Shown one piece after another: positions 12,866 through 33,977 of a stretch of 33,995 bases of DNA. Location: contig JAGYKD010000006.1 of assembly GCA_018401695.1 (NCBI GenBank), positions 1-33,995 of the forward strand, in the 5' to 3' direction. The position numbers and the translations under genes are program-made. Origin of the DNA: Flavobacteriales bacterium (GTDB lineage: Bacteria; Bacteroidota; Bacteroidia; CAIKAF01). The notes beneath the pieces are model-generated. The model ran no database searches. It saw only the letters and a program-made list of their open reading frames with translations, and was not told the origin of the DNA. Positions within the stretch are counted from its first letter, which is position 1. Each line of letters begins with the position of its first letter.

Positions 12866-12892
12866 GGAACGCAAATAGTAGAAAATGGCCCC

Positions 12893-13020
12893 CCGGCCGG
12901 GCATAGGAGCGGCAAAGCCAAAGGCCGCAGCGCCTGCTTGAGGAGGCGGAGCGCATGCAAGCCCCCGCAAAGCTTGGCGATGCGCGACTTTGGCAAAGCC
13001 GAACCGGAGCCAAGGGCCGG
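12893..13020. repeat. GC-rich long-hairpin intergenic element 1
   Basis: It lies in the convergent gap between the regulator and the FTR1 permease genes. Nested complementary arms, from outside inward: CCGGCC (12893-12898) with GGCCGG (13015-13020); GGC with GCC; CGGCAAAGCCAAAG (12910-12923) with CTTTGGCAAAGCCG (12988-13001, 10 of 14 paired); and an apical hairpin GCGCATGCAAGC/GCTTGGCGATGCGC (12951-12985). It has no reading frame with coding character. It is one of four such elements in the window. Its shared sequence with the others is limited, so membership in one family is tentative. Confidence 0.55.
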
Positions 13021-13066
13021 CTAGTTTAAAGAAACTTCTAGAGTAGAGGGCGCATATCCCTAAAGT

Positions 13067-14590: not shown

Positions 14591-15298
14591 ATGGGAAGAA
14601 TGTTCGAAAAGCGTAAGCACAAGATTTTTGCGCGTAACGCCAAGGTATCCAAAATGTTTACCAAGTATGGGAAAGAGATTTCCATTGCTGTAAAAGCCGG
14701 AGGGCCTGACCCGGACAACAATACCAGGTTGAGGTCTATCATTCAAAACGCCAAGAGCGACAACATGCCCAAGGACCGCATTGAGGCGGCCATTCAGCGG
14801 GCTTCCAATAAGCAAGATGCCGATTTTCAGGAGATTTCCTACGACGGCTACGGTCCCCACGGCGTGGCCTTAGTGGTCGAAACCGCCACCGACAACCCCA
14901 CCCGCACGGTGGCCAACATCCGCATGTATTTTAACCGCTCGGGCGGAAATATGGGAACCTCCGGAAGCTTGGACTTTATGTTTCAACGCAAAGGAGTGTT
15001 CAAAATTAAGGCCGAGGGACAAGACCTGGAAGCTTTGGAATTGGAACTCATAGACCACGGCGCCGAAGACATTGGCGAAGACGAAGGGGTGATTTATGTG
15101 TATACCGAATTCGAAGACTTTGGACGCATGCAACAGGCCCTTGAAACCATGGATGTGGAGGTCCTTAACTCCAGCTTGGAGCGCATCCCCACCACCACCA
15201 CCGAGCTGAGCGACGAGCAGCAGGAGGACATTGTAAAATTGATAGAGCGTTTTGAGGACGACGACGACGTAACCGCCGTCTTTCACAACATGGCTTAA
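14591..15298 (+). CDS. yebC: YebC/PmpR/TACO1-family protein
   Basis: The product has 235 aa with the Bacteroidota form of the family start, MGRMFEKRKHKIFARNAKVSKMF, then ISIAVKAGGPDPDNNTRLR, NAKSDNMPKDRIEAAIQRA and YDGYGPHGVALVVETATDN. All three domains (helical N-terminus and two alpha/beta domains) are present. The family was first described as DNA-binding regulators. More recent work on mitochondrial TACO1 and bacterial YebC supports a translational role at difficult peptide sequences. Weak -7-like boxes (TAGATTTC at 14555 and TATTTTTA at 14566) precede the ATG. It is divergent from the cytochrome/FTR1 operon and followed by a terminator hairpin. Confidence 0.93.
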   Translation: MGRMFEKRKHKIFARNAKVSKMFTKYGKEISIAVKAGGPDPDNNTRLRSIIQNAKSDNMPKDRIEAAIQRASNKQDADFQEISYDGYGPHGVALVVETATDNPTRTVANIRMYFNRSGGNMGTSGSLDFMFQRKGVFKIKAEGQDLEALELELIDHGAEDIGEDEGVIYVYTEFEDFGRMQQALETMDVEVLNSSLERIPTTTTELSDEQQEDIVKLIERFEDDDDVTAVFHNMA

Positions 15299-15302
15299 GG
15301 GG

Positions 15303-15323
15303 CCCCTGCATTCTAGGGGTTTT
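15303..15323 (+). terminator. Rho-independent terminator of yebC
   Basis: CCCCT (15303-15307) pairs with AGGGG (15315-15319) around a 7-nt loop and is followed directly by TTTT. It begins 5 nt after the yebC stop. The stem is short but very GC-rich. Confidence 0.55.
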
Positions 15324-15334
15324 ACGCTCCGGTT

Positions 15335-15466
15335 GGGCCTCCTTCCTGCTCCGGTGCCGCCCTGCGGCTTCGGCCATACAGCTCCGGGGAGTTCCGCAAA
15401 GCTACACTCCCGGCGCTGTTGCCTCAGGCGCAGCCCGGCATCCGGGGCATTCCCTCCGGCCTGGGG
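15335..15466. repeat. GC-rich long-hairpin intergenic element 2
   Basis: Located in the gap between yebC and the convergent NdpA-like gene. Arms CCGGTGCCGCCCTGCG (15351-15366) and CGCAGCCCGGCATCCGG (15429-15445) give 14 of 16 pairs plus one bulge, and enclose an apical hairpin GGGAGT (15387-15392)/ACTCCC (15406-15411). Three blocks, at 15335-15350, 15381-15389 and 15442-15466, recur in the same order and nearly the same spacing in the element at 33841-33970. No coding potential is visible. Confidence 0.7.
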
Positions 15467-15496
15467 GGCTCAAATAAGAAGGTTTTCTGCCCTGTG

Positions 15497-21910: not shown

Positions 21911-22042
21911 TACCTTTTCCTAAGGCTGCGTATTGATCAGCATCTTCCAGTCGGTGCTTTTTTTCCTGACGCTTCGGTCAGGGTTATAAACTTGAAAAAG
22001 GAATACGGCAATGGTCTTCATAATGCCCAAACGGAGCTTAAT

Positions 22043-22186
22043 GCGCCCCGGCGGAGGCCAATTAGCCTGCCGAAGTGGGGTGCACAGCCGCTGCCCGACT
22101 AAGAGCGACCGGAGGAAGCTCCTTAGTTGGGCTTAGCGGAGTAGCTACCCCGCAAGGCAGCTAATGGCCGGAGACGGATAAGGCGC
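22043..22186. repeat. GC-rich long-hairpin intergenic element 3 (144 nt)
   Basis: This is the most complete nested hairpin in the window. GCGCC (22043-22047) pairs with GGCGC (22182-22186). GGCCAATTAGCCTGCC (22056-22071) pairs with GGCAGCTAATGGCC (22156-22169) with two single-base bulges. GGGGT (22077-22081) pairs with ACCCC (22147-22151). CCGCTGCCCGACTAAG (22088-22103) pairs with CTTAGTTGGGC-TT-AGCGG (22122-22139, one G-U pair and a 2-nt bulge). The loop is 18 nt. All pairs nest in order. No coding frame or T tract is present. Confidence 0.72.
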
Positions 22187-22280
22187 CCAAATAAACCGAA
22201 GGGAATTTCCTTGTTCCGGTCAATTAAAGGCTTGCATTCCACTTCTTTGGGTTGGGATTTTTCATTGAAAACACAGCGCA

Positions 22281-33735: not shown

Positions 33736-33840
33736 ATAAAATAAGGTGAATTTTATGGCTTGTAGCACACCATATTAAATGATGTTTTTCCGATTATGTT
33801 CACAGGCCTGTTTTTTTAATTGGTTAATGGGGCCTGAACC

Positions 33841-33970
33841 GGGTCCTCCCTGCTGGTCCTCAGCGGCAAGCAAAGGCGGGCTATGGCTCCGGGGTCCCCG
33901 AAGCAACGGGGCCTCCTCGCTTCATGCCCGCCTATGCTTGCCGCTTCCGGGCCATTCGTTCGGCCCCTGG
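33841..33970. repeat. GC-rich long-hairpin intergenic element 4
   Basis: Arms GCGGCAAGCAAAGGCGGGC (33863-33881) and GCCCGCCTATGCTTGCCGC (33926-33944) are complementary at 18 of 19 positions and enclose an apical hairpin CCCCG-AAGCAA-CGGGG (33896-33911). Blocks at 33841-33854, 33886-33894 and 33947-33970 correspond in order and spacing to those of the element at 15335-15466. No coding potential. Confidence 0.72.
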
Positions 33971-33977
33971 CCCAAAT

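Follow-up and report, generated by a model that had tools for sequence, protein, structure and literature searches.

A previously unlisted family of high-copy intergenic hairpins with covarying arms in an uncultured lineage of Bacteroidia

The analysis of a 33,995-nt stretch of DNA from a Flavobacteriales bacterium (contig JAGYKD010000006.1; below, the window) revealed that two long hairpins present in it are members of a previously unlisted, high-copy family of intergenic hairpins from an uncultured lineage of Bacteroidia. Covariation across this family is unequivocal. A scan of the window at Rfam gathering scores returned only a tRNA, neither hairpin matching any family, and no prior description of these hairpins was found in the openly accessible literature covered. 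We give a probability of about one half to the explanation that the elements once spread through the genome and now serve a host role through the hairpin formed by the strand opposite to the one in which they are written here.

The first-pass annotation of the window had described both hairpins, reporting common block order and spacing and arms which each pair with their own partner. The three blocks were recovered where it had placed them, starting at 15335, 15381 and 15442 in the first hairpin (spacing 46 and 61 nt) and at 33841, 33886 and 33947 in the second (45 and 61 nt). Own-partner pairing was confirmed by folding, with -80.7 kcal/mol (z -3.7) for the first and -90.4 kcal/mol (z -5.9) for the second; 0 of 200 dinucleotide shuffles folded as well in either case. 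The hairpins are not chance structures. A covariance model made from two other copies recovered both (E 9e-6 and 0.004). The 31-copy model R2 scores them at 88 and 80 bits, values which are not independent since both hairpins are in its training set. The coordinates in the annotation were correct but its account was incomplete: the element runs past the ends assigned to it, and the window contains four copies rather than two, the additional pair being weak by R2 score.

Member 1 occupies positions 15300..15473 of the + strand (model core 15324-15469), has type III ends and apex A1 (GGAGTTCCGCAAAGCTACACTCC), and starts 2 nt past the stop of a yebC-like gene (14591-15298). Along the + strand it consists of a 5′ conserved block (15335..15355; P2, internal loop and P3 strand, GGGCCTCCTTCCTGCTCC), a left variable arm (15356..15380), the apical module A1 (15381..15411), a right variable arm complementary to the left one (15412..15441) and a 3′ conserved block (15442..15462; CCGGGGCATTCCCTCCGGCC). 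Its ortholog in G002, a sister species with approximately 88% DNA identity to the window's genome (G000), is 95.2% identical. The presence of the yebC-downstream copy in G001, G004 and G005 was considered and rejected: there the hairpin sits upstream of the gene, and no hairpin is present in the spacer downstream. Member 2 (33828..33973, + strand) has type I ends and apex A2 (CTCCGGGGTCCCCGAAGCAACGGGGCCTCCTCG) and lies near the contig end. The two copies absent from the first-pass annotation are both on the - strand. Member 3 (12882..13033; type III ends, apex A4; 25.9 bits, E 0.008) is located in the spacer of two convergent genes, and member 4 (22040..22195), despite its low score of 17.9 bits (E 0.2), is a long hairpin with the same GGGCGCC...GGCGC ends.

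DNA searches with each of the two window hairpins gave more than 40 partial matches in the genome to which the window belongs (2.99 Mb, 99.8% completeness; 47% G+C in a 200-kb stretch). A covariance model that started from two sequences was extended to 31 copies and then rebuilt as R2, which located the element in at least 140 places, from 150 scored of 615 candidates. Approximately 20 copies are present in a fully searched 200 kb, and a figure of about 300 copies per genome is therefore likely; the genome copy number rests on the searches together with the fully searched stretches. All five same-genus genomes carry copies, with at least 73-75 R2 matches each, and in four genomes from two other genera of the family 1-25 matches were obtained, the copies being recognisably the same elements. 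R2 had no matches in the 30 remaining genomes. Among the named genomes of the GTDB set one apical pattern was found only in MAG JAUHWY01 ('Bacteroidia bacterium'), which is the same-genus genome G002. Virus-borne elements were rejected, as both apex patterns searched for were without a match in viral contigs.

A copy consists of one hairpin some 145 nt long (about 146 nt in the 119-copy consensus), and for most copies the G+C content is 60-75%. The paired ends, mostly GGGCGCC...GGCGC, are followed by a short second helix and by an internal loop flanked by the conserved strands CTCCCTGC and TCCGTNC. In the helix beyond this loop TCC/GGG is conserved and its neighbours covary; next come the arms, two in number and of near-constant length, and the apical module closes the hairpin. 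By position-wise consensus, the conserved positions are those of the ends, loops and apex, and the sequence information of the arms is near nil. The ends fall into three or more kinds and the apices into several, and these are mixed in varied combinations. In type III copies (L004, L014, L015, L017 and L066) some 30 nt are added on the 5′ side, GGGCCC...TCCATAGG...TATTCTAACCGGCC, and two of these copies, L014 and L066, are without the usual 3′ half. Several elements (L027, L028, L044, L067) have next to or inside them another dispersed sequence, CGCCGCCAGAATAGCAACGCGTCAACGGTCTC, or relatives of it.

The first-pass annotation had further claimed, from the two window hairpins, that arms change while pairing is preserved. 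This proved true genome-wide and was borne out by compensatory changes between orthologs. The check that it had proposed, collection of the genome copies, structural alignment and a covariation test, was carried out, and none of 500 shuffles matched the observed covariation score. Changes on both sides were seen at 49 of 53 pairs in the 31-copy alignment and at 52 of 53 in one of 121 rows, two of which are reverse-strand reads of a palindromic copy. In the 121 rows 86.8% of pair cells were paired; shuffling lowered this to 53.3% and sliding to about 50% or less; covariation beyond shuffled and slid controls, as looked for in a structured-RNA class, is thus present. Both alignments were fitted to the structure, the covariance-model route having been taken because sequence-only multiple alignment misplaces the arms. 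An arm-swap test, which uses no alignment, agreed with them: of the 119 elements, 96 had their own right arm as the best partner among all 119 and 111 had it among the top three, with a mean duplex energy of -43.3 kcal/mol for own and -23.6 kcal/mol for swapped arms.

The copies are held in place between species. Among those that could be anchored, 49 of 51 are at the orthologous position in G002 (16 of 16 in one 200-kb stretch); of the other two, one has an internal deletion between GGGCT repeats in G002 and one is in a non-aligning spacer. No clean empty site was found among these 51 loci, and two element-less sites in comparisons of G001, G003 and G005 had no recognisable target duplication. 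Over 48 pairs of orthologs from G000 and G002, stems were 93.8% identical and unpaired positions 94.7%, compared with 79.8% for the 60-nt flanks. Double changes in stems left 44 Watson-Crick and 18 non-pairing combinations, with 11.4 doubles of all kinds expected under independence. Same-place elements with conserved ends also persist between G001 and G003 (72% mean identity) and between G001 and G005 (83%), and in one G001/G003 element the end blocks are almost unchanged while the arms are altered. The ortholog of L102:1190 in G002 is reduced to its two ends, the whole inner hairpin being deleted between short direct repeats, GGGCT, that belong to the 5′ and 3′ blocks, and that of L160:1560 carries a MITE-like insert of about 120 nt with inverted ends TTGAGTTTGTTAACGG and CCGTTAACAAACTCAA inside one arm.

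Some of the compensatory changes are adjacent multi-base clusters on both arms (e.g. L148, L134 and L128), and for this reason part of the pairing may stem from template switching, a documented maker of such paired changes (PMC8794818, PMC7202029), which may well act together with selection. The conservation of the unpaired blocks relative to flanks shows that more than a hairpin-copying mutation bias is involved. Ectopic gene conversion of blocks between copies could mimic part of this conservation.

The family is divided into related subfamilies that are dispersed over the genome. As with MITE-like elements, near-identical copies occur in unrelated flanks, the match being limited to the hairpin (94.7% for L139/L153 and 90% for L130(2669)/L163). 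Two very similar inverted copies lie 1.35 kb apart in G005 (C4, 41264 and 42618), G001 having only one of them and other sequence in the place of the second; this suggests a recent copying event. The REP/RAYT link for which the first-pass annotation had recommended a search was not borne out. Y1_Tnp genes were counted in 16 genomes, with four in the window's genome and none in G001, G005, G009 or G014, yet G001 and G005 are of the same genus and have at least 74 hairpin copies each. Copies do not systematically flank the Y1_Tnp loci in the genome of the window: one of the four has a copy within 1.5 kb, a proportion not above that expected from copy density. At L071:748-1346 an IS200-like Y1_Tnp gene adjoins tandem repeats that read as a repeated peptide, RSYGAGRGFAPTELQRF. 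Reverse transcriptase (RVT_1) is missing from five of eight genomes (G001, G003, G004, G005 and G014), and retro-transposition of A-tailed RNA was rejected on this ground; integron sites were likewise rejected, as none of the eight genomes has an integron integrase (TIGR02249) above the family cut-off. The copies are tracked by none of these three kinds of enzyme.

The first-pass annotation had spoken of a selected structure, which does not mean the strand as written: accepted mismatches in one species pair point to the opposite strand. These were scored in the written orientation, at pairs that one species keeps and the other has lost through a single change. Between G000 and G002 orthologs A·C mismatches outnumbered G·T by 76 to 27 (p 1.4e-6), 47 against 19 arising from G-C pairs and 29 against 8 from A-T pairs. 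A mutational strand bias was ruled out as the cause by the excess on both paths and by the flank spectra, in which A/G (272) and C/T (268) changes show no strand bias. At stem-internal pairs the ratio was 34 to 4, and pyrimidine-pyrimidine mismatches exceeded purine-purine ones by 36 to 9. The A·C excess pointed the same way whatever the gene context, reaching significance in three of the four contexts, and between paralogs the counts were 19 and 6. Read on the opposite strand, the accepted mismatches are G·U and purine-purine, the stable ones, which suggests that the selected hairpin is that of the opposite strand, whether in RNA or in single-stranded DNA form. Among six ortholog pairs from G001, G003, G004 and G005 the pyrimidine-pyrimidine asymmetry was reproduced (16:5) and the A·C excess was absent (8:10), so that the claim for the opposite strand needs more data. 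RNA is our preferred reading; single-stranded DNA is a possible form beside it because, after normalisation to the flank spectrum, G·A and G·G are tolerated on the favoured strand about as well as G·U.

The spacers that contain 113 of the copies are convergent in 43 cases, tandem in 56 and divergent in 14, compared with 30, 104 and 43 background spacers in a rough gene call of two 200-kb stretches and the window. Convergent spacers are thus enriched and divergent ones depleted. Orientation relative to tandem neighbours is random (26 sense, 30 antisense). On the written strand the element is preceded by a T-tract and often starts within 30 nt of a stop codon; on the opposite strand an A-tract follows its 3′ end. 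The Bacteroidota-type promoter TAnnTTTG was not enriched on either side of the elements. Copies had no strand bias along contigs, and replication-strand targeting was rejected accordingly.

Several known systems resemble this family in part. ERIC, too, is one long imperfect palindrome. ERIC/IRU (127 bp) and other MITE-like intergenic repeat units (PMC2759123) have in common with the hairpins a length of about 130-150 bp, intergenic location and dispersal. ERIC is, however, described as a family of repeated sequence; in the hairpins only modules and pairing are kept from copy to copy, and the arms are unrelated. REP, BIME and REPIN sequences with their RAYT (PMC3733652, PMC6006769) are also high-copy intergenic palindromes with several subfamilies per genome and enrichment at gene 3′ ends. 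The hairpins are much longer, have conserved internal loops and free arms, are stable between species and occur without any Y1 transposase; neither a 20-40 nt palindrome with a GTAG/GTGG foot nor a cognate RAYT flanked by copies was found. The attC sites of integrons (57-142 nt) keep fold over sequence, with unpaired spacers and one favoured strand (PMC2727003). The hairpins likewise combine structure, unpaired parts and a putative favoured strand with little sequence conservation, but there is no integron integrase, they do not lie in cassette arrays, both orientations occur, and position-wise consensus of the ends contains no R''/R' boxes (RYYYAAC / GTTRRRY). Candidate structured RNAs such as Flavo-1, Bacteroidales-1 and 6S-flavo (PMC2864571, Rfam) are covarying intergenic structures of Bacteroidetes as well; the present family differs by its hundreds of copies per genome and by window hairpins below every Rfam gathering score. 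The family is somewhat REP/ERIC-like in location and copy number and somewhat attC-like in keeping fold over sequence.

In the explanation that we prefer, the elements would once have multiplied by copying, and every copy would now be kept for a host role that needs both the fold and the loop sequences. The active strand would be the one opposite to that written, most likely as a transcript, whose purine-rich loops may be bound by a putative dedicated protein; the arms, free in sequence as long as they pair, would serve as a spacer of fixed length. Against this explanation are the random gene orientation, the lack of promoter enrichment, the 8:10 ratio in the second lineage and a mismatch tolerance that fits DNA hairpin stability equally. 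The last point would also suit strand-specific single-stranded DNA hairpins serving as recombination or transposition sites, like attC or IS200/IS605 ends, mobilised in trans by a putative enzyme. We consider this unlikely. A kept fold with varying arms and one favoured strand is indeed known from attC bottom strands (PMC2727003), and such sites could explain equal tolerance of G·T, G·A and G·G, copied subfamilies in unrelated flanks and the near-identical extra copy in G005; however, the distribution of integron integrases, Y1 transposases and reverse transcriptases, the lack of strand bias on contigs, the 49 of 51 copies unmoved since the split from G002 and the failure to find a clean empty site or target duplication all speak against it. 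Mobilisation of REP/BIME-type palindromes by RAYT (TnpA_REP) is largely refuted for now and retains very little probability: intergenic location, enrichment between convergent genes, palindromy, high copy number and four Y1_Tnp genes in the window's genome agree with it, but a length of about 145 nt instead of 20-40 nt, the footless consensus, RAYT-less genomes rich in copies and the density-level proximity to Y1_Tnp loci do not.

Selection would be dispensable if the hairpins were functionless mobile elements and replication kept their arms complementary through template switching (quasipalindrome correction). The documented mechanism and the multi-base compensatory clusters within single elements are as this predicts, but it leaves unexplained the conservation of unpaired loops, the retention in G002 and a strand asymmetry that is independent of context, and we regard it as improbable. 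A slightly lower standing is given to a role as transcript-end elements, in which mRNAs arriving from either side would be stabilised or terminated by generic 3′ hairpins. The enrichment in convergent and depletion in divergent spacers would follow from such a role, as would the position shortly after stop codons and a T-tract. Gene orientation is random, however, the strand asymmetry is seen also where no neighbour reads the favoured strand, neither strand has a strong U-tract after the hairpin, and conserved internal loops would be needless.

The hairpin elements probably do something useful for the cell. Only tentatively can they be proposed as a new class, in which hundreds of copies per genome, each individually maintained, would present fixed loop modules on freely evolving, strand-specific arms to a putative dedicated host protein reading the loops genome-wide in RNA or single-stranded DNA form. 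Repeats between bacterial genes are usually seen as mobile debris. In contrast, hundreds of copies held between species, evolving more slowly than their flanks and with compensated stems, point to a genome-wide function of a repeat. The family also provides hundreds of independent replicates of how stems stay paired, whether by stepwise compensation, by template switching or by both.
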